36,683 bases of DNA, from contig CAIVYW010000200.1 of assembly GCA_903910205.1 (NCBI GenBank), forward strand, positions 1-36,683, given 5' to 3'. The DNA is from an uncultured Methylococcaceae bacterium. Lineage in GTDB: Bacteria > Pseudomonadota > Gammaproteobacteria > Methylococcales > Methylomonadaceae. A model generated the notes under the pieces. That model ran no database searches. It had not been told where the DNA came from and was given only the letters and a program-made list of their open reading frames with translations. Position numbers and translations under genes: made by a program. Shown in pieces: positions 4,984 through 32,515 of this stretch (the first letter of the stretch is position 1; the number at the start of each line of letters is the position of its first letter).

Positions 4984-6447
4984 TCAATGGGATGCCCGAA
5001 TTAATAAGCTTATTTTATCTAATACAGATAGCGCGGCATTAATAATCAACTGGCGACTACTTTCTTTTGAGCTTGATTCTACAATGAGTCGCGTACTGAT
5101 ACATAAGCGTAACGCACTAATGGCTACACCATTACGTTGCCCACAAGCCACTGGCTGGCCTGTTTGACAACGTAAGTTTGCAATAGCGGCATAATGAGTG
5201 GGTATATTGTTGTGTTTGTCGTTGATAGAAATGGATAGCTGCTGATAAACCCTCAAGGTTTCTTCTGCACTTAAGGGTGTTCTATCTATATCGGCATGAT
5301 AAAGCAAAAACGGAAAAATAGTCTGAAGTTGATCCCAACTAGAGTCTACTTGCAGTGGGCTGCGGTCTATTATTGGCACTGGCAAGGGCTCAAAAAAGAC
5401 ATCCTGTTGTAACCGTTCATGTATAGCCGCAGTAAAGTCATGAATAAAATTAATAATATATTCTTGAGGTATCAATCGGAATGCTTTGAGTTCTTGCAGA
5501 GCGACTTCCCAGCGTAACAATAAGCCAAAATTAACAGGTTCTGAGTGGGGGGTTAAAGTGCGGTAGGCTGCATCTAACTCACTGCTGAGCGAGCTTTTAA
5601 AAAGTATCACTCCAGAAAAAGAAGGGCCGGTTAAAAATTTTGAACCCGTTAAGGCAACGATAAAGCCTAGCTCAAGATAAGCACCCAGTGTAGGTGGCGC
5701 TATACGAAATTGGCAAGCATCGATGAGTACATCCATTTTATCTTGAAAACGCTGGTGCAGATCTAAAACACAGCTAAGACTAGGCGCAATCAAGCCAGTC
5801 TTAGATTGATCCGTTACTATGAGTAATACGCGTCGGTTTGTAGTAATAGCCTCCGCGACCAGTGCTTCGACTTCTTTATCAATAGCGGTTATGGGTCTAA
5901 GTTCACCATTGTCTAATCGAAGCTTTATAGGTATTACTTCGCTTTGCTCATCATGAGTAGCAGTCTTTAACGCAGCATTGACACCTTTGCCAGTTTCATT
6001 GGCTTCTATCATGATTATTCGTGGCGCTAGCTTGTTTCCACGCGCTGCGTAGCAGGCCACTAAGCTATGAGCATCAGTGCCTGACGCTGAGAAGATCATA
6101 CCCGTTGTTTCTGGCACAACGCATAAATGTATTAACTCTTGACGAAGACGCTTTATTTCGTGGCTATAAATAGTGGCTGCTGCTTCTGTTTTAAGGGCTA
6201 CTACTAAGCGTTGATGTAGCTGGTTTGCATGCTGATAACCTTGGCTTGAAATAATAGAGGCCGTAGATGAACCATAAGCTAACATAGTGGGATCGGGAAA
6301 AGGTCGGCAACCGTATTGATTCATACCACTGATAGCATCTAAAGCAATACGGGCATCACCTCCGGACGTTAAACATTGGGCCGTATCAGACAGCATTTCT
6401 TGAGGGCTATAAGTCATGCCTTCAGGATGCGAGTAGTTAGTTTTCAT
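4984..6447 (-). CDS. Fold-type-I PLP-dependent enzyme (class V aminotransferase/kynureninase-like), uncharacterised
   Basis: FSASGTDAHSL (phosphate-binding region), DACQFRIAPP (Asp contacting PLP) and LTGSKFLTGPSFSG (candidate Schiff-base Lys). Confidence 0.7.
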   Translation of the reverse strand: MKTNYSHPEGMTYSPQEMLSDTAQCLTSGGDARIALDAISGMNQYGCRPFPDPTMLAYGSSTASIISSQGYQHANQLHQRLVVALKTEAAATIYSHEIKRLRQELIHLCVVPETTGMIFSASGTDAHSLVACYAARGNKLAPRIIMIEANETGKGVNAALKTATHDEQSEVIPIKLRLDNGELRPITAIDKEVEALVAEAITTNRRVLLIVTDQSKTGLIAPSLSCVLDLHQRFQDKMDVLIDACQFRIAPPTLGAYLELGFIVALTGSKFLTGPSFSGVILFKSSLSSELDAAYRTLTPHSEPVNFGLLLRWEVALQELKAFRLIPQEYIINFIHDFTAAIHERLQQDVFFEPLPVPIIDRSPLQVDSSWDQLQTIFPFLLYHADIDRTPLSAEETLRVYQQLSISINDKHNNIPTHYAAIANLRCQTGQPVACGQRNGVAISALRLCISTRLIVESSSKESSRQLIINAALSVLDKISLLIRASH

Positions 6448-7684
6448 GACTTATAGCGGTTTTATTTTTAATATTAAGCAACATGTCTCGAAAAGCGTTA
6501 AATAATTTATTCATTGGTAGTTGTTTATAAGGAAATAGTTCGACAGAATCAAAAGCGTGTACCATCATGCAGCTATCTACTTCAAAAATAAGTAATTGAC
6601 CATCCGCTGTTTCGCCGCAATCTATACCGAGATAATTTAATCCAATACGCTCATTAATGACTGAAAAAGCCTGTGCATGTCGAGTCGCAAAATCAGTGTC
6701 AAAAGTTGCCATAGCGGCCGCTTCTTCAGCCCTTTTTTCAGCATTTTCTGCCATACCGGCATTGAGGTAATGAATCATCCAGTTTTCAGAGATAGCCAAA
6801 TGACAAATAAACGGACGCCCCTCTATTAATACAATGCGATATTTCCTAAACAGCCCATCTTGTCCTCGATAATCAATAAACCGTGAAATATAGAACTCAC
6901 TATTTGCATGTGTTTGTAAATACTGTGCTAGGGCGACCGCATCATCTATTTTATCCAAGCCGTGTCCGGCATGAGAATCAACGGGACGCACAATTATCGG
7001 ATAAACGCCAGAGGCAAGGTATTGTTGAAGATCTAAAGCCTGATGAGCTATTTTTTCCAAGACTAGTCTATCGATACGCACCGTGTTGGGCATACTAATA
7101 CTAGGACTATCTTGTAAACCTACCCCAGCTTGATTTCGCGATAATAAAGCAATACGATCTGGCAAGTTGATGACGGGGCAAGGCCAACCGGTAATAGCCG
7201 CACTAACCGCTTGCAACAAGGCCATGTTTTGATCAGACTGGGCGATAGCTACAAATAAGACCTCATGCTTTGGCAGTTCTTCTGCTGCGGGTAATGGCCG
7301 ATCTTCTGTCACATAAACCAAATGCAGCAAAATATCGGCGTCTTCTAAGAGGATTTCTATGGGCGTGTTGGCCATAAAATCACCAGCACTCAGTACCGCA
7401 CACACACGCAGAGTGATTGCCGCATGGCTAGTCGGTTGAGTATAAATCTGTTGATGAGCTATCGCTTCTGATTGGGAACGTAGACCTAAGTCACGGTTAC
7501 CTCGTATTTGCAAAACTATCGCCAAATCCATTAGAGAATTTGCACTAGCGCCTGCTTGTACCTCTTCGATTAATTGTGTGCCTAAGGACGCTAAATCCAC
7601 ACCCGAAAAAGCCATACGCATGAGTTTGGCAAAGCCAATTAAGGGTGTTTTATTGGCATTAATAGAAGAGCCTATCGCGTTCAT
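6437..7684 (-). CDS. ATP-grasp (RimK-like) domain protein, putative ligase
   Basis: PIIVRPVDSHAGHGLDKI, YISRFIDYRGQDGLFRKYRIVLIEGRPFICHLAISENWMIHY and NYLGIDCGETADGQLLIFEVDSCMMVH fit the ATP-grasp nucleotide/metal-binding pattern; stop overlaps the next start by 11 nt. Confidence 0.75.
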   Translation of the reverse strand: MNAIGSSINANKTPLIGFAKLMRMAFSGVDLASLGTQLIEEVQAGASANSLMDLAIVLQIRGNRDLGLRSQSEAIAHQQIYTQPTSHAAITLRVCAVLSAGDFMANTPIEILLEDADILLHLVYVTEDRPLPAAEELPKHEVLFVAIAQSDQNMALLQAVSAAITGWPCPVINLPDRIALLSRNQAGVGLQDSPSISMPNTVRIDRLVLEKIAHQALDLQQYLASGVYPIIVRPVDSHAGHGLDKIDDAVALAQYLQTHANSEFYISRFIDYRGQDGLFRKYRIVLIEGRPFICHLAISENWMIHYLNAGMAENAEKRAEEAAAMATFDTDFATRHAQAFSVINERIGLNYLGIDCGETADGQLLIFEVDSCMMVHAFDSVELFPYKQLPMNKLFNAFRDMLLNIKNKTAISHEN

Positions 7685-7710
7685 TTATTTTCCTGTGACA
7701 ATGATAATTT

Positions 7711-7946
7711 GGTTACCGATTTAAGACGGGACAGTTTCAGCCTAGACGAAAGGTTCAAGTTTAAGGATTAAAGGTGGCTAGCAACTTAAGACCGGACATT
7801 TCAGTCCAGACGAAAGGCTCAGGGCGAAAGATTAAGTCTAGGAGGCTGCAACTTAAGGCGTGACAGATACTAGGCTTAACCCTTTGCCTGCTCTTAATCT
7901 AAAAGTGAACCATTAAGCTAAGCTGTCCCGCTTTAAGTGGCTAGCC
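7711..7946. mobile_element. MITE-like element D (236 bp, composite), 8-bp TSD GATAATTT
   Basis: Left end GGTTACCGATTTAAGACGGGACAG, right end CTGTCCCGCTTTAAGTGGCTAGCC; perfect GATAATTT at 7703-7710 and 7947-7954; two further left-end-like copies inside at 7776 and 7844. Confidence 0.9.
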
Positions 7947-9397
7947 GATAATTTTAGTGTGGTTTCGATGATTTCTCCGAAAGCCAAGGTCGCTGCGATT
8001 AAGGCATCAATATCACTAATCGTGGTTCGATGATTAACAATAGCGGCACGAATAGCCAATTGGCCTTGTAGCGTAGTCGATGAAGGGGCAACGATGCCAG
8101 ATTCTTGCAAGGCAATGACAATATCCGCGTTAATACGATTAGGATTTTCGCATCGATAACGAAAGCAAACTATATTGAGCTCAACAGGCGCTAAAAGCTC
8201 TAATTGTGGACTGAGTTCTATGCGTTGTTTTAGGTATTGCGCCAGTACGCAAGTAGCAAAGATAACCTGACCCAACTTTTCTGGGCCATAAACTTTTATA
8301 GTAAACCACGTTTTAAGCGCTCTAAAACCTCGTGATAATTCTGGGCCTAAGTCGCATGGCCAGGGTGAACCTGCCGATAGCCCTTTGCTTGCTCGGCTTA
8401 AATAAGCGGCTGGCGTAGCAAAAGTATCGAGTTGATGCTCACCATTCCTGACCAGTATAAATCCAGCATCATAAGGAACCTGTCCCCATTTATGAAAATC
8501 AAAAGCGATGGAATCGGCACGCTCTATACCTTGCAAACGAGGTGCAAGATCAGGCGCTAATATTGCCAAAGCACCGTAAGCACCATCAACGTGTAGCCAA
8601 ACTTTCTCCAGCTGGGCAAGATCTGCAATTGCAGATAAGGGGTCAATAGCGCCAACATCAACAGTACCTACGGTTGCAGCAATAAAAAAAGGTATCAGCC
8701 CTGCTTTTTTATCGGCACGAATAGCCAGAGCGAGTGCCTCTACATCCATTTGGTAATTGTCATTAGTTGCAATCATACGTAAAGCATCACTGCCTATACC
8801 CGCGATATCCATAGCTTGTGCAATACTAATATGAGCACTTGCCGAAGTATAAGCAACCAACTGTAGACCTGAATTAACTAAGCCTTCTTTTCGAATAGAT
8901 TTTTTTAAGCAAGCAGTACGGGCAATCAACACGCTAATAAGATTAGCCATAGAAGTACCCGTAACAAAAAGTCCGCTGGCTGTTTCTGGAAAAGAAAATA
9001 GCCCTTTAATCCATTGCAGTAATTGTTTTTCAAGTTCAATGGGCGCTTGATCACGTCCACCTACATTAGCATTTAACCCCGCAGCTAACATGTCGGCCAA
9101 CATTCCTACCGGTGTGCCACCGCCATGAACCCAACCCATAAAACCTGGATGAGTATTACCTACCGCATAAGGTAATATGCTTTTCATAAAGGTCTCATGT
9201 ACCTCAGCAAGATCGCTAGGCTCATTAGATAACGGCTGTTGAAAAATTTCACGCTGTGCAGGTGATAAACCTTGCCAAACAGGCTGTTCTCGCAACTGCT
9301 CAAGGTAGTCAAACATATCATCTAACATTTGATGGCCTTGCTGACGAAAACTAGGCCAGTCGTCTGGATCTAGGGTATTTTCAGATGTTTTAAGCAT
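7913..9397 (-). CDS. Group II pyridoxal-dependent decarboxylase (aromatic-L-amino-acid/glutamate decarboxylase-like)
   Basis: GWVHGGGTPVGMLADMLAAGLNANVGG, VTGTSMANL, WLHVDGAYGA and FDFHKWGQVPYDAGFILVR (PLP Lys in HKW). Last 10 residues and stop lie inside MITE D. Confidence 0.9.
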   Translation of the reverse strand: MLKTSENTLDPDDWPSFRQQGHQMLDDMFDYLEQLREQPVWQGLSPAQREIFQQPLSNEPSDLAEVHETFMKSILPYAVGNTHPGFMGWVHGGGTPVGMLADMLAAGLNANVGGRDQAPIELEKQLLQWIKGLFSFPETASGLFVTGTSMANLISVLIARTACLKKSIRKEGLVNSGLQLVAYTSASAHISIAQAMDIAGIGSDALRMIATNDNYQMDVEALALAIRADKKAGLIPFFIAATVGTVDVGAIDPLSAIADLAQLEKVWLHVDGAYGALAILAPDLAPRLQGIERADSIAFDFHKWGQVPYDAGFILVRNGEHQLDTFATPAAYLSRASKGLSAGSPWPCDLGPELSRGFRALKTWFTIKVYGPEKLGQVIFATCVLAQYLKQRIELSPQLELLAPVELNIVCFRYRCENPNRINADIVIALQESGIVAPSSTTLQGQLAIRAAIVNHRTTISDIDALIAATLAFGEIIETTLKLSASHLKRDSLA

Positions 9398-17284: not shown

Positions 17285-19744
17285 TTATCGCACTGCATTC
17301 AAAATGGTTTCGATCATTTTACTACTAGCGGTAATCGATTGTGAATTGGCTGAATAGGCTTGCTGAGCAGTAATCAGAGAAACTAATTGATCTGATAAAT
17401 TAACATTAGATTGCTCCACCGCGCCCGATTGAATACTGCCAAATGAACCGCCCCCAGCCGCACCGTGCTTAGGGGCTCCAGAAGCAGAGGTTTCCACCCA
17501 ATCGGTACCACCTATTGCTACTAAGCCTTGTGGATTTGTGAAATTCGCTAACGCCACTTGACCTAGTGCCGTTGAGGTACCATTACTATAGTTAGCTGAA
17601 ACAATACCTGTACCATCAACAGACACACTGGTTACTGTGCCTCCAATCGTGCCGTTTTGGCTGCTTGAATTAACATTAAAAGTGCTGGCTGTTTGTGTGG
17701 TTCCAGCATAATTGATACTCGCCGTTGTGGGGGTTGAGCCCGACAAAGTCCAAGACAATGATGACGTTGCAGGCGAGGTGAGCTGCCCACTAGAACCGAA
17801 TGTTTGCATAGTACCTGCCGTGTATGCAAAGTAAGGTGCTGCTAAATTAAAATCGTTTTGATAGTTACTGGCTGCTGTTTGGGCGGCTTGAGCAGCTGTT
17901 GCGGCCGCAGTGGCAAGCTTGGCGGCTTGATCGCCAGATGCACTATCCACAACTTGGGCAGCAGCCAAAGCATAAGCTGTGGCGGCAGTCGCAGAGGCAG
18001 TGGCGGTACTTTGTACGGCTGCGGCGTCAGTCACTAAATTCCCTGCAGCCGTAGCGGCTGCCGTAGCGGCGGTAGCTGCTGTGGTATTACCTGCCGCAGT
18101 GGCCGCAGTGGCCACTGCTGTCGCAGCAGTAGCGGCTGCACTAGCATCAGTAGAATTGGTACTGCCGAAAACTTGAGTGGCGGCCTTTGCAGCAGCGGTA
18201 GCCGATGTTTGCGCACTAGTCGCTTGACTCAATGCGGCAGCAGCATTAGTGGCATTAGCTGCTGTATAACCCATCGTTAAATTTGTGGCCATTTGTATCG
18301 GTAAATAGGGTGCTGCCAATGCAAGGTCAGCATTATAAGTTGCAACGGCAGCTTCCGCCAATGCGGCATCATCTGCGGCAGAAGCTCCAGCAACAGGTGG
18401 ATTTTGCGCTGGCCCCGCGAGTAATGCCGCAGCGGTAGCGGAAGCAGTGTCAGTCACAGCCTGCGCTGCAGTATTATAAGCAGCCGCAGAAGTGGCAGCT
18501 GTAGCAGCCGTTGTTTTTACCGCCAAAGCTTCAGTAGCCAGATTGCTTAGTGCTGTACCAGCAGCAGTACCAGCAGCAGACACCGTAGGATCTGCAGAAG
18601 CGGCGGCGGCGGCCGCACTGGCAATAGAATTAGTCAGTGCGGCTGTTGGTGTTGTTACTGTTCCAATAGCTACGACACTATTGTTGTAAGCTGTATTAGC
18701 CACAGTTGCAGCAGAAGTTGTCGCTATTTGCGCTGTTATAGCTTGGTTAACGGCTGCTTTTTGAAGAGTTGGAGAATAGACCGTAGCCGTGGCAGAGGCC
18801 GCGGCAGACGTAGAAGCAGTATTAACCGCATTAACAGCAGCAATCGCAGGATTGGCTGCCGCTGCAGCAGCGGCAGCCGCTGTTGTCGCTGTAGTAACGG
18901 CTAGCGTCGCATCATTGAGTAGCGGAGCTGAAAAAAACGTAGGATTATTACTGGGTATTCCACCTAAATTGACATTATTACTGCTAGCATTTACCGTAAC
19001 AGCAACGGGGGCTGCGGGATTATCGGTCATATAATTATAAGTGGCCCAATCAGTTTGATTGGGTATCTTAGGGTCGGCACCTTGTGCCACATAATAAGTG
19101 GTTAAATTATGTGAAACACCCACTGAATCATAAACAGTGGTTGAGGTAGACGAGCTATAACTAGTCGAATCTAAGGGATTAAATGGGCTGGTTGCTGGCG
19201 GTTTACTAGCAACATTCAAATTAACACTTTGATTAATCGTCGTGGTGGCCACAGGAAGCCCTGCGCCACTAGGTATAGTTATGGTTGACATAGCCCCAGT
19301 ATTAAACCCTGCTGCGGCTGATGCTGGATTATTAGGCTGATAAGCCAGTAATGCTTCGCCTTGCGGATTAATAACCATGCCAGCATTATTCACTTGGAAA
19401 GAACCCGCTCGACTGTAAACAACAGCACTGGGGTTAGTGGGATTAGGCGCTAAGGTAAAAAACCCGTTGCCATTAATCGCCATATTCAAATTATTGCCCG
19501 TAACTTGTGCTGTGCCTTGATTAAACTGCTGTATGTCTTGTACTACCGACACACCAGTACCCGGTTGCGTAGTAACGCCAGTAGCGGAATTAATGCTTTG
19601 AAAATGATTGGCATAGCTATCGGCAAACTGAGCGACTGATTCTTTAAAGCCAGTGGTATTAGCGTTGGCAATATTATTACTAATGACGGCTATATCATTG
19701 GCTGCGGCATTTAAGCCACTAATAGCGGTTGAAAAAGAACTCAT
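17285..19744 (-). CDS. flgE: Flagellar hook protein FlgE with a very large Ala/Thr-rich insertion
   Basis: MSSFSTAISGLNAAANDIAVISNNIANANTTGFKES; C-terminal VNLSDQLVSLITAQQAYSANSQSITASSKMIETIL; about 360 aa low-complexity insert. Confidence 0.95.
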   Translation of the reverse strand: MSSFSTAISGLNAAANDIAVISNNIANANTTGFKESVAQFADSYANHFQSINSATGVTTQPGTGVSVVQDIQQFNQGTAQVTGNNLNMAINGNGFFTLAPNPTNPSAVVYSRAGSFQVNNAGMVINPQGEALLAYQPNNPASAAAGFNTGAMSTITIPSGAGLPVATTTINQSVNLNVASKPPATSPFNPLDSTSYSSSTSTTVYDSVGVSHNLTTYYVAQGADPKIPNQTDWATYNYMTDNPAAPVAVTVNASSNNVNLGGIPSNNPTFFSAPLLNDATLAVTTATTAAAAAAAAANPAIAAVNAVNTASTSAAASATATVYSPTLQKAAVNQAITAQIATTSAATVANTAYNNSVVAIGTVTTPTAALTNSIASAAAAAASADPTVSAAGTAAGTALSNLATEALAVKTTAATAATSAAAYNTAAQAVTDTASATAAALLAGPAQNPPVAGASAADDAALAEAAVATYNADLALAAPYLPIQMATNLTMGYTAANATNAAAALSQATSAQTSATAAAKAATQVFGSTNSTDASAAATAATAVATAATAAGNTTAATAATAAATAAGNLVTDAAAVQSTATASATAATAYALAAAQVVDSASGDQAAKLATAAATAAQAAQTAASNYQNDFNLAAPYFAYTAGTMQTFGSSGQLTSPATSSLSWTLSGSTPTTASINYAGTTQTASTFNVNSSSQNGTIGGTVTSVSVDGTGIVSANYSNGTSTALGQVALANFTNPQGLVAIGGTDWVETSASGAPKHGAAGGGSFGSIQSGAVEQSNVNLSDQLVSLITAQQAYSANSQSITASSKMIETILNAVR

Positions 19745-22825: not shown

Positions 22826-24169
22826 TTAACCTAACAGTAATGCTAACTCTTGCAAGCTGCGAGCCATATCAACTTGCTCATTCATATCTTGTTGTAAAAA
22901 ACTAACAATTTCAGGATTTTTTCTAATAGCCGCATCAATTCTCGGATCTGAACCAGGTTGATAAGCCCCGACACTGATTAAATCTTGATTTTGTTGATAA
23001 AGTGAATATAACCGCCTGACTTCTCTGGCCATCTGTAAATGATTAACATCAGCGATATCTGGCATAACCCGACTTATTGAGGCTTCAATGTCGATAGCTG
23101 GAAAATGACCGGCTTCAGCAAGACTTCTGGATAAGACGATATGTCCATCCAATACGCCTCTAGCCGCATCGGCAATAGGATCATTATTATCATCACCTTC
23201 GGCTAATACGGTATAGAAAGCCGTAATTGAACCGCCGTCTAGGTTAGCGTTACCGGCACGCTCTACTAAATGCGGTAATTTTGCAAATACCGAAGGTGGA
23301 TAACCCTTTGTTGCAGGAGGTTCGTTAATAGCCAAAGCAATTTCTCGATGTGCTTGTGCAAATCGAGTTAAAGAGTCCATTAATAACAATACATCACGCC
23401 CCTGATCGCGAAAATATTCAGCGATACTGGTTGCCAATAATGCACCATGAACTCGCATCAACGGTGGACAATCGGCGGGAGTGGCCACAACAACCGCTCT
23501 TTTAAGACCTTCTTCGCCGAGTATCTTTTGTACAAATTCGTTTACTTCTCGGCCTCGTTCACCAATTAAGCCTACTACAACTATGTCAGCGTTGGTGAAT
23601 TTAGTCATCATACCTAAGAGAATACTCTTACCTACACCGGTACCTGCAAACAAGCCTATACGTTGCCCCCGCCCTACTGAAAGAATGGAATTAATCGCTC
23701 TAACGCCAACATCTAAGGGTTCTCGTATGGGCTTTCTCGACAAAGGATTAATAGGTACGCCATTAAGTGAAATTTGCGCTTCTATTTTAAGTGGCCCCTT
23801 GTCATCTAAGGGATTACCAGCGCCATCAACGACGCGACCCAATAAGCTATAGCCCACCTTGGCTAAGCTAGCTTTACCCAAAGGGATCACACGACAATCT
23901 GGCTCTAGCCCATACAACTCACCCGTTGGCATCAAGAATAAACGCTCGCCAGAAAACCCCACCACTTCCGCTTCGATGGTTTTTCCAGCCTTAGTCTCCA
24001 CTCGACAACGTGAGCCAATGGCGGCTCTACATCCGACAGCTTCTAAGGTTAGGCCAACCATCCGAAATAACTTGCCCTCAACAACTAGCTCTGGAGTTTG
24101 TGTTAATTTTTGTGAGTAAGGTTTTAATTGCTGCAACCAAAGTGCTGATCTATCTATAACTGGAATCAC
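22826..24169 (-). CDS. fliI: Flagellum-specific ATPase FliI
   Basis: Walker A GLFAGTGVGKSIL; LLMDSLTRFAQAHREI; YPPSVFAKLPHLVERAGN. Confidence 0.97.
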   Translation of the reverse strand: MIPVIDRSALWLQQLKPYSQKLTQTPELVVEGKLFRMVGLTLEAVGCRAAIGSRCRVETKAGKTIEAEVVGFSGERLFLMPTGELYGLEPDCRVIPLGKASLAKVGYSLLGRVVDGAGNPLDDKGPLKIEAQISLNGVPINPLSRKPIREPLDVGVRAINSILSVGRGQRIGLFAGTGVGKSILLGMMTKFTNADIVVVGLIGERGREVNEFVQKILGEEGLKRAVVVATPADCPPLMRVHGALLATSIAEYFRDQGRDVLLLMDSLTRFAQAHREIALAINEPPATKGYPPSVFAKLPHLVERAGNANLDGGSITAFYTVLAEGDDNNDPIADAARGVLDGHIVLSRSLAEAGHFPAIDIEASISRVMPDIADVNHLQMAREVRRLYSLYQQNQDLISVGAYQPGSDPRIDAAIRKNPEIVSFLQQDMNEQVDMARSLQELALLLG

Positions 24170-25170
24170 GAGTCGCTATCCTGTCCTTGTTCTCCATTCA
24201 ATAATGTCGCTATAACCACTGCTACTCTTTTTTCAACTGTGACATCAATATGCGAAATATCCGTATCGACCATACAACCACCTCGGGTAATCGAAGGATC
24301 TTCGATAGCGACCCAGATAGCCGATGGCTCATCTAATTCAAAGGCAGAGCGCACCAACTGAGCGTCCTCAGGATGCAAATGTAAGTTAATTTTTTGTGCC
24401 GATAAAGGTAATGCTTTTATAGCAACCCTAACTACGGCCAGAATTAGTTCAGGATCTAATTTAATTTCACGATAAATAACCTGAGTCGCTATGGCAATGA
24501 CAATCTTAATCAACTCTTGCTCAACTTCAGTATCAAGGTTTTTAAAAGGCTCGCCTAATGCGTCAAGTATAAGATTAAATTCAGCCGCCTTAGCTTGCAA
24601 GATATGTAGATTTTCCTCATAACCTTGGGCTGATCCTTTATTAAGACCATCCTTAAAACCCTCATCAAATCCATTGCTAAGTCCTTGGCTATGCCCTTCG
24701 CTATACCCCTCTTCTTTACCTTGTGCAAAAGCCTCGTCATAAGCCTGCTTTTGCATAAGTTCAATGTCATCAACGGTTAAAACCGACAGGGGTACTGGTT
24801 CAAAAAGGGTAGAGCTCGCCCTATTTCCTGAGGGAATATTCGGCATACGCCATACGCTTAGTGATTCTAGTTCAGTATCTGAAAATCCTGACGTCTTAAT
24901 GGAAGATCCCGATACGGATTCAAAAACATGGGGCGTGATAGTCTTTTCAGAGGGCATATCCGACAGCAGCCCCTCATCTAATGATTCCAATCTAGCGTCT
25001 AAAAATCTTGATGCTTTAGATGAAACAACTAATTCGGGCGATACTGCTTCAAAAATATCAGCCGTTTTTATCTTTCCAGAAGGCACGTCTGGGAGACGCC
25101 AAACACTTAAGGACTCTAACTCGGCCTCTGAAAACCCTGATGCATTAGATGAGGTCATCGGCACTTTCAC
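24166..25170 (-). CDS. fliH: Flagellar assembly protein FliH with triplicated N-terminal segment
   Basis: GxxxG-like stretch AYDEAFAQGKEEGYSEGHSQGLSNGFDEGFKDGLNKGSAQGYEENL and C-terminal FliH/YscL domain; position between fliG and fliI. Confidence 0.92.
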   Translation of the reverse strand: MKVPMTSSNASGFSEAELESLSVWRLPDVPSGKIKTADIFEAVSPELVVSSKASRFLDARLESLDEGLLSDMPSEKTITPHVFESVSGSSIKTSGFSDTELESLSVWRMPNIPSGNRASSTLFEPVPLSVLTVDDIELMQKQAYDEAFAQGKEEGYSEGHSQGLSNGFDEGFKDGLNKGSAQGYEENLHILQAKAAEFNLILDALGEPFKNLDTEVEQELIKIVIAIATQVIYREIKLDPELILAVVRVAIKALPLSAQKINLHLHPEDAQLVRSAFELDEPSAIWVAIEDPSITRGGCMVDTDISHIDVTVEKRVAVVIATLLNGEQGQDSDS

Positions 25171-30694: not shown

Positions 30695-32515
30695 CTAGGC
30701 ATAGACACTCAACAAGCCTTTATTAACAACGATGCGGTTAGCTGCTGCCTCTTCACTAAGTCCAGTAGCAACACCCTCTGTTCCTTGCTCTTGACGTTCT
30801 GGTGTTCTTGAAAAAGATTGGTAAGGTGATTGTGATTGACCTTGATCTGACGTGGTACTTTGTGAAATAGTAACATTCGTTAAATTGAGTTGCTGAGTAC
30901 CTAACATTTCACGTAACTTTGGAATAGACGCCTCAAGAGCCTCTTTAACCGCAGCATGTTGTGCGGTAAATTCTACAGATGCCTGATCTTGAGTAAGATC
31001 GATACGGACAGATATCGGACCAAGATGCTCAGGGTTCATTTTAATCTCTGCTGTAGAAAGTTCTTTGCTATTCATCCATATAATTTGATTGCCTAAATCT
31101 TTACTCCATTCAGGATGCGTTAACGGTTTCGTCAGCACTGGACTCTCAATTTTATTAGTGATAACGGGCTGTTGCGCTCCAGCTATATCCCTAGAAACAC
31201 CCGTTGCTAGTTGACCAGCATCTGACGTTGTTAGCAAATCTTTAATTGCCTGTGTTTTTTCAGAGCTTAATAGAGTGTCAAAGGATGGTAAATCAGATGC
31301 CTGTCCACTTTGAGCGGACTGATTAGGAGCTGCTTCTTTCTGTAGAGAATCACTAGCAACAACAGCTAAATCACTTGGAGGCATAGGCGCGGTATTATTT
31401 TGTGTCTCCGTTAACATTGTTGATGTTTTATCAGACGGGATATTAATCACTACTGGAGCATTTATAGTCATGACTGCACTCATGTTTTGTGCAATAGCCG
31501 TGGCATCAGGCATAATATCCGACATAGTGGGTATTGGCGCATCGTTTAACGTCGATGACGCAGTTGCTTTATCAGCTGGGATACTCATAGTGACCTGAGC
31601 GTTAGTTGTGATGACTGTACTCATGTTTTGTGCAACAGCTATGGCATCAGGCATAGTATTCGACGTGATTGGTTTTGACGCATCTTTTAACGTCGATGCT
31701 GCAACTGCTTTATCAGACTGGGCGCTGGTAGTAGCTTGAACATTAGCGGCCATCACCTCAGACATAGTATTTGACGTAATTGGTTTTGACGCATCTTTTA
31801 ACGTCGATACTGCAACTGCTTTATCAGACTGGGCGCTGGTAGTAGCTTGAACATTAGCGGCCATCACCTCAGGCATAGTATTCGACGTGATTGGTTTTGA
31901 CGCATCTTTTAACGTCGATGCTGCAACTGTTTTATCAGATTGGGTGCTGGTGGTAGCTTGAACATTAGCGGCCATCACCTCAGGCATAGTATTCGACGTG
32001 ATTGGTTTTGACGCATCTTTTAACGTCGATGCTGCAACTACTTTATCAGACTGGGCGCTGGTAGTGGCTTGAGCATGAGTCTCCATCGCTGCACTCATAT
32101 TTTGTGCAATAGTGATAGCGTCAGGTGCGCTACTGACTAACGCTGATTTCTCTCCAGCAGTTAAGGCCTGTAATTTAGATTGAAGATCCAGATTCTTACC
32201 AGCGACAAGTGCTGTGTTTTGTTGATAGCTTGTCGACGCTTTGTTAATCAACAGCTTAGAAAAAATGTCCTCGCCACTTTTACTTTGCGACACGCCATCT
32301 ATATTTTTCGCTGTATCATTAGGCAAAGATGGGGAGGTACTTTTTACTGATTGAGGTGAGCTTGTCTCTGGGCTGGTCTTATTTAACAAATCCACTTGCC
32401 CAGCTAATCTAGTAGAGAACGAATCAGGAGCTGCGCCATTTTCAGGTAAAGAAGTCTCCCCTCCTTTAGAAGACCCATTCACTGACGACGATAAACTCAC
32501 ACCTTCAATATTCAT
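30695..32515 (-). CDS. fliK: Flagellar hook-length control protein FliK with internal tandem repeats
   Basis: C-terminal Flg_hook domain: ELSTAEIKMNPEHLGPISVRIDLTQDQASVEFTAQHAAVKEALEASIPKLREMLGTQQLNLTNVTIS; Q/S-rich tail. Confidence 0.92.
   Translation of the reverse strand: MNIEGVSLSSSVNGSSKGGETSLPENGAAPDSFSTRLAGQVDLLNKTSPETSSPQSVKSTSPSLPNDTAKNIDGVSQSKSGEDIFSKLLINKASTSYQQNTALVAGKNLDLQSKLQALTAGEKSALVSSAPDAITIAQNMSAAMETHAQATTSAQSDKVVAASTLKDASKPITSNTMPEVMAANVQATTSTQSDKTVAASTLKDASKPITSNTMPEVMAANVQATTSAQSDKAVAVSTLKDASKPITSNTMSEVMAANVQATTSAQSDKAVAASTLKDASKPITSNTMPDAIAVAQNMSTVITTNAQVTMSIPADKATASSTLNDAPIPTMSDIMPDATAIAQNMSAVMTINAPVVINIPSDKTSTMLTETQNNTAPMPPSDLAVVASDSLQKEAAPNQSAQSGQASDLPSFDTLLSSEKTQAIKDLLTTSDAGQLATGVSRDIAGAQQPVITNKIESPVLTKPLTHPEWSKDLGNQIIWMNSKELSTAEIKMNPEHLGPISVRIDLTQDQASVEFTAQHAAVKEALEASIPKLREMLGTQQLNLTNVTISQSTTSDQGQSQSPYQSFSRTPERQEQGTEGVATGLSEEAAANRIVVNKGLLSVYA
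31420..32075 (-). repeat. Tandem repeat array in fliK (111-bp unit; several near-identical copies plus degenerate flanking copies)
   Basis: CATTAGCGG recurs at 31741, 31852 and 31963 (exact 111-bp period); protein unit SDKxVAxSTLKDASKPITSNTMxEVMAANVQATTSxQ (37 aa). Confidence 0.9.

Follow-up and report, generated by a model that had tools for sequence, protein, structure and literature searches.

Tandem repeats in the ruler region of a methanotroph fliK gene and differences in FliK length among Methylococcales

Tight control of hook length, and its natural tuning, have been studied mainly with engineered Salmonella rulers. In this organism, FliK proteins of 363 to 785 amino acids give hooks of 42 to 135 nm, a linear relationship of 0.2 nm per residue, and the wild type combines a FliK of 405 amino acids with a hook of 55 nm, the length at which motility is best (PMC6126814). 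This agrees with the preliminary description of the locus studied here, which had stated that FliK length sets hook length in Salmonella. Deletions in the linker that precedes the FliK switch domain shorten the hook and loosen its control (PMC6972891). Natural strain variants of YscP of Yersinia enterocolitica vary in how many in-frame repeats (of 14, 25, and 46 amino acids) they carry, with protein sizes of 452, 515, and 538 amino acids, and needle length is linear with protein size, according to PMC3469391 (citing Wagner et al. 2009). For fliK, the open-access literature yielded no described case of tandem or internal repeats or of repeat variation, which is not proof of absence, and in papers on Brucella, C. 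difficile, and Dickeya the gene appears only as an entry in gene lists.

Here, we describe a fliK gene with such an array in a 36,683-nucleotide stretch of DNA (hereafter, the window) from an uncultured Methylococcaceae bacterium (GenBank contig CAIVYW010000200.1). It corresponds to contig C200 of a draft assembly (3.49 Mb, 618 contigs, 90% complete), the one genome of its species analysed here.

The fliK gene and its repeat array

The gene (Table 1) has a reading frame of 606 codons (32515 to 30695, minus strand) that is unbroken across the whole repeat region. Residues 476-558 of the protein match the Flg_hook domain (PF02120; 81.4 bits against a curated cut-off of 29.8, E = 4.2e-23; Pfam), and residues 456-567 match the solved C-terminal domain of FliK (2rrl, E = 1.1e-13). 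The gene lies between a fleQ-like sigma-54 activator gene and fliM, inside a flagellar gene cluster whose frames are present on the window. Pfam backs the identity of FliF, a flgJ-type glucosaminidase/rod-binding protein, and the FleQ-like activator, and the remaining cluster genes were named from sequence and gene order only. In the family survey described below, FliK proteins have the variable N-terminal ruler and fixed C-terminal switch part expected of this family. The full-length FliK equivalog model of NCBIfam (PRK10118) gave the window FliK 67 bits against a cut-off of 396, and the model of the YscP needle ruler (TIGR02514) gave 17 bits against a cut-off of 76.5. We read PRK10118 as an enterobacterial full-length model, so that the miss argues against an enterobacterial-type subgroup and not against FliK at large. 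Judged by its sequence, the gene is a true fliK, and its repeats lie ahead of the Flg_hook domain, in the N-terminal ruler or linker part in which the preliminary description had placed them.

Table 1. Features of the window fliK gene (positions in the window)
Feature	Position	Strand	Basis
fliK, flagellar hook-length control protein	30695..32515	minus	606-aa open frame, Flg_hook domain, cluster position, 2rrl match
Flg_hook (FliK C-terminal export-switch domain), not repeated	30842..31090	minus	Pfam
FliK N-terminal part, aa 1-130, without repeats	32126..32515	minus	alignment with relatives
Near-identical tandem array, period 111 bp, 3.9 copies	31647..32076	minus	TRF
Unit 1, 47 aa, putatively ancestral type; last 25 aa nearly identical to the 37-aa units	31985..32125	minus	unit split and DNA alignment
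Unit 2, 37 aa, 30-bp-deleted type	31874..31984	minus	unit split and DNA alignment
Unit 3, 37 aa	31763..31873	minus	unit split and DNA alignment
Unit 4, 37 aa	31652..31762	minus	unit split and DNA alignment
Unit 5, 47 aa, diverged	31511..31651	minus	unit split and DNA alignment
Unit 6, partial 47-aa unit, most diverged	31397..31510	minus	unit split and DNA alignment

The array was detected by TRF with 94% matches, no indels, and a score of 783, the two other arrays of the window scoring 58 and 50. At an offset of 37 residues, the best self-match of FliK reached 474, whereas 20 shuffles yielded no more than 62 (a 7.7-fold difference). This is the strongest internal repeat among the 31 proteins of the window, where otherwise only FliH (114 versus 48) and FlgE (190 versus 109) clearly exceed their shuffles. 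These results bear out the near-identical, in-frame 37-aa (111-bp) repeats that had been reported from the sequence, together with their consensus (SDKxVAxSTLKDASKPITSNTMxEVMAANVQATTSxQ). The extent first given, 31420-32075, was too short: the full repeat region extends from around position 32125 down to 31397 (residues 131-373) and reads 47-37-37-37-47-38 (partial) amino acids. The flanking copies, previously taken for degenerate 37-aa units, turned out to be 47-aa units when the region was split into units and aligned as DNA.

The 47-aa units have a PDAxxIAQNMSA-like start in common. The 37-aa units lack 30 bp at the unit start and align throughout the remainder with the 47-aa units, all of which keep these 30 bp, both in the window FliK and in that of the nearest relative (G009). 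The three central 37-aa units differ from one another at 4, 5, and 7 of 111 bases, with two or three of the differing codons per pair changing the residue. The last 25 amino acids of unit 1 fall within the near-identical tract, and the longest perfect repeat in the array is 87 bp. The units have a high content of Thr, Ala, and Ser and also contain some proline; an AlphaFold model built on a three-row alignment had a mean pLDDT of 34 and is uninformative on the repeat fold.

Other genes of the cluster have features of their own. The N-terminus of FliH (24166-25170, minus strand) holds about three copies of a unit of ~41 amino acids (SGFSEAELESLSVWRLPDVPSG..., score 114 versus 48 shuffled), and its gene is likewise long in G009 (339-aa frame), with 236-292 amino acids in the other relatives tested. 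The hook protein FlgE (17285-19744, minus strand; 819 amino acids) has an Ala/Thr-rich insert at about residues 257-640 with a weak 21-aa periodicity. Its orthologue in G009 (587 amino acids) has a shorter insert of the same kind, that in the next relative, G005 (427 amino acids), has none, and FlgE frames of more than 590 amino acids recur in several genera of the family. Two decarboxylase-like genes (recognized by sequence inspection only), with a third gene between them, occupy 4984-9397 (minus strand) within the flagellar cluster, the three being located between chemotaxis/flgN-like genes and flgL.

FliK length in relatives and across the family

FliK is present in 11 of the 35 genomes of the window's genus. 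A scan of the genome contigs with the window FliK as a single sequence found no relative, and an alignment used as the query led to five loci. The nearest relative, G009 (Methylococcales MAG AMbin149), encodes a FliK of 475 amino acids with two 47-aa units and no 37-aa unit, and the next, G005 (MAG Methylobacter sp. KS41), one of 386 amino acids with zero units. Outside the repeat region, the G009 protein aligns over its full length with the window FliK, and the G005 protein does so with more gaps. In many congeners (G002, G005, G011, G024, G027, G029, G032, and G033), there are two Flg_hook genes, which points to a second flagellar system; a single one, of a type also present in G005, is found in the window genome and in G009.

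Among the Methylococcales methanotrophs, 139 of 237 family genomes contained FliK relatives, from which 124 distinct complete frames were read and 123 scored (at least 300 amino acids, switch domain located). Internal repeats well above shuffles occur in 35 of these 123 proteins and in nine genera; the unit lengths are 9, 12, 14, 22, 26, 28, 34, 37/47, 42, 49, and 68 amino acids, among others, and the unit sequences are mostly unrelated. An exception, judged by eye, is a QN(M/V)-type pattern present both in the 14-aa units of genus g11 and in the 47-aa unit, perhaps an ancient element shared by the two. The repeat tract ends before the switch domain in 34 of the 35 proteins and overlaps the domain start by 6 residues in the remaining one. 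The distance from the start of the switch domain to the protein end has a median of 153 amino acids in FliKs with and without repeats alike (sd 10 and 6, respectively), and the part before the domain varies more than twofold (sd 69-129). Median length is 563 amino acids with repeats versus 453 without (Mann-Whitney p = 1e-10, shared descent not corrected), and the 88 FliKs without a detected repeat still span 310 to 654 amino acids. Of the TRF rows with a period of at least 9 bp, 60 of 63 are multiples of 3.

We also compared FliK with FlgE. The rank correlation between the lengths of the two proteins was 0.63 in a set of 104 genomes and 0.52 when 22 genus medians were compared; because it does not hold inside the larger genera (0.18 in g11, 0.25 in g16) and is uncorrected for shared descent, we do not claim that they co-vary.

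The clearest length series is that of Methylotuvimicrobium (g19), whose FliKs measure 445, 445, 445, 532, 664, and 717 amino acids on otherwise closely similar backbones. The 445-aa proteins of three species have no repeats, the 532-aa protein has one extra unit of 86 amino acids, the 664-aa protein holds 68-aa units, and the excess of the 717-aa protein over 445 corresponds to 4 x 68 amino acids. Hence, the differences in FliK length between related species correspond to whole repeat units, in line with the stepwise change expected in the preliminary description. The 717-aa fliK is on a single-contig genome, and since G160 and G163 are single-contig genomes, the repeat lengths in this genus are not artefacts of short-read drafts. 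The 532-aa FliK belongs to Methylotuvimicrobium alcaliphilum 20Z (G158), whose second replicon is 99.9% identical to NC_016108.1 over the 3 kb tested. The hook protein FlgE has 432-451 amino acids in the genomes of this genus where its frame was read. It should be noted that the FliKs of G158 and G159 (L090 and L104) carry an identical variant repeat tract, PATMRSDHNVLDNTQAIPVSTMPLNIIKSPDETILAVDANTKLPLENQSDDTGITDSDGNIPKLIKNILQ, preceded by units that differ, a pattern suggestive of exchange between lineages by recombination inside the array.

The idea that such length variation is peculiar to the Methylococcales family was rejected, as open frames with Flg_hook reach 1560 amino acids across the class, only some of the long ones being repetitive. 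One FliK of 1556 amino acids (L187, G421:C221:8500-13700) contains 14.2 copies of a 150-bp unit (LGSILSDIRAQLSLLEGGEGTKPA...). It comes from a draft genome of another gammaproteobacterial family, its length is far beyond the tested range of rulers, and G325, of the same genus, has a much shorter frame of about 552 amino acids.

Origin of the repeats and alternative explanations

The most likely reading is that of an ordinary FliK ruler evolving in length through the gain and loss of repeats. In particular, we give a probability of about 0.8 to the window feature being an ordinary FliK ruler whose middle part was lengthened by tandem duplication, each unit adding to hook length. The 141-bp unit would be the older one, because the 37-aa units lack only 30 bp and G009 has only 47-aa units; the 37-aa unit taken as the basic one in the preliminary description is thus better seen as derived. 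From the pattern of units, we infer that a 47-aa unit, of which two copies already exist in G009, was duplicated, that one copy then lost 30 bp in frame to form the 37-aa unit, and that this unit was multiplied until there were three copies as well as the tail of unit 1 that matches it, while the N-terminus and the C-terminal switch domain would have stayed fixed throughout. Units were probably gained and lost by unequal recombination or replication slippage. The expansion, proposed earlier to be recent, is so relative to the species split, but it is not fresh, since the central copies differ at 4-7 of 111 bases.

As a secreted ruler, FliK would allow the export gate to change over from hook to filament subunits once hook length roughly matches that of the stretched N-terminal part. 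At 0.2 nm per residue, each 37-aa unit is predicted to add about 7 nm, and the hook would measure roughly 95 nm, or 73 nm without the three 37-aa units; a range of 0.15 to 0.37 nm per residue would give 5.6 to 13.7 nm per unit. For Thr/Ala/Ser-rich units with some proline, the value may not equal the one obtained in Salmonella with helical YscP inserts. We infer an effect of the repeats on hook length, as well as any selective reason for it.

A competing explanation, which we consider unlikely, is the neutral expansion of a disordered linker, in which length drifts and the hook either does not follow or follows without consequence. Many unrelated units occupy the same stretch, as if only length or disorder were loosely constrained, the region is rich in Ser, Thr, and Ala, and the wide span of the 88 repeat-free FliKs is also in keeping with drift. 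However, insertions and deletions in this part of Salmonella FliK alter hook length and motility (PMC6126814; PMC6972891), and therefore a length change without effect on the hook would need a different mechanism here. Phenotypic neutrality, with a hook that changes in length but to no effect, may nevertheless apply.

Less probable still is a contingency locus resembling phase variation, where frequent switching of copy number within one population would produce hook-length variants. Perfect repeats of 87 bp placed 111 bp apart would be long enough for recombination, and copy number differs between closely related species, but the three central copies carry private substitutions and the array has therefore been stable long enough to diverge. 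That the copy number is an artefact of short-read assembly seems very improbable, even with a 618-contig, 90% complete draft and the 87-bp repeat: every copy has its own substitutions and is therefore not one copy duplicated by the assembler, and the same kind of repeat exists on single-contig genomes. The true number could exceed four; given the state of the draft and the length of the perfect repeat, identical extra copies may have been collapsed, which would make four copies a minimum.

Extending the reading of a repeat-lengthened ruler beyond the window, we tentatively propose, as a possibility rather than an expectation, that hook length is an evolvable trait that changes stepwise in methanotrophs and other Gammaproteobacteria. 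In this case, fliK would be a fast-evolving gene with many independent repeat origins, rulers would go from ~310 to ~900 amino acids in the family and up to 1556 elsewhere, and hooks might range from ~50 to well over 150 nm, perhaps matched to the envelope, the S-layer, or the hook subunit. Methylotuvimicrobium provides a natural series of ruler lengths, with zero to four extra 68-aa units on nearly the same FliK backbone, and as it includes the cultured M. alcaliphilum 20Z, the ruler model can be tested on natural variants, as can the cost of long hooks.

Comparison with known rulers

The repeat-bearing FliKs of Methylotuvimicrobium (G158, G159, and G163) resemble the window FliK in bacterial family, gene, position of the repeats, and length steps of whole units. 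Their units of 68-86 amino acids, however, have no evident similarity to the 37/47-aa unit, and the two sets of repeats are apparently of separate origin. Salmonella FliK is similar to the window FliK in its Flg_hook switch domain, its place in the flagellar gene set, and its variable N-terminal ruler. Nevertheless, the Salmonella series (310-785 amino acids, wild type 405) was engineered with pieces of YscP or by deletions, whereas the variation in the window's family is natural and arises via tandem repeats, its hook lengths being only predicted. The closest precedent for repeat-driven variation of a ruler is YscP (PMC3469391), and we class the window FliK with it, among rulers whose length changes through repeats. 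The two differ in that YscP measures the injectisome needle and varies within a species, whereas the window FliK belongs to the flagellar hook and its variation is between species.
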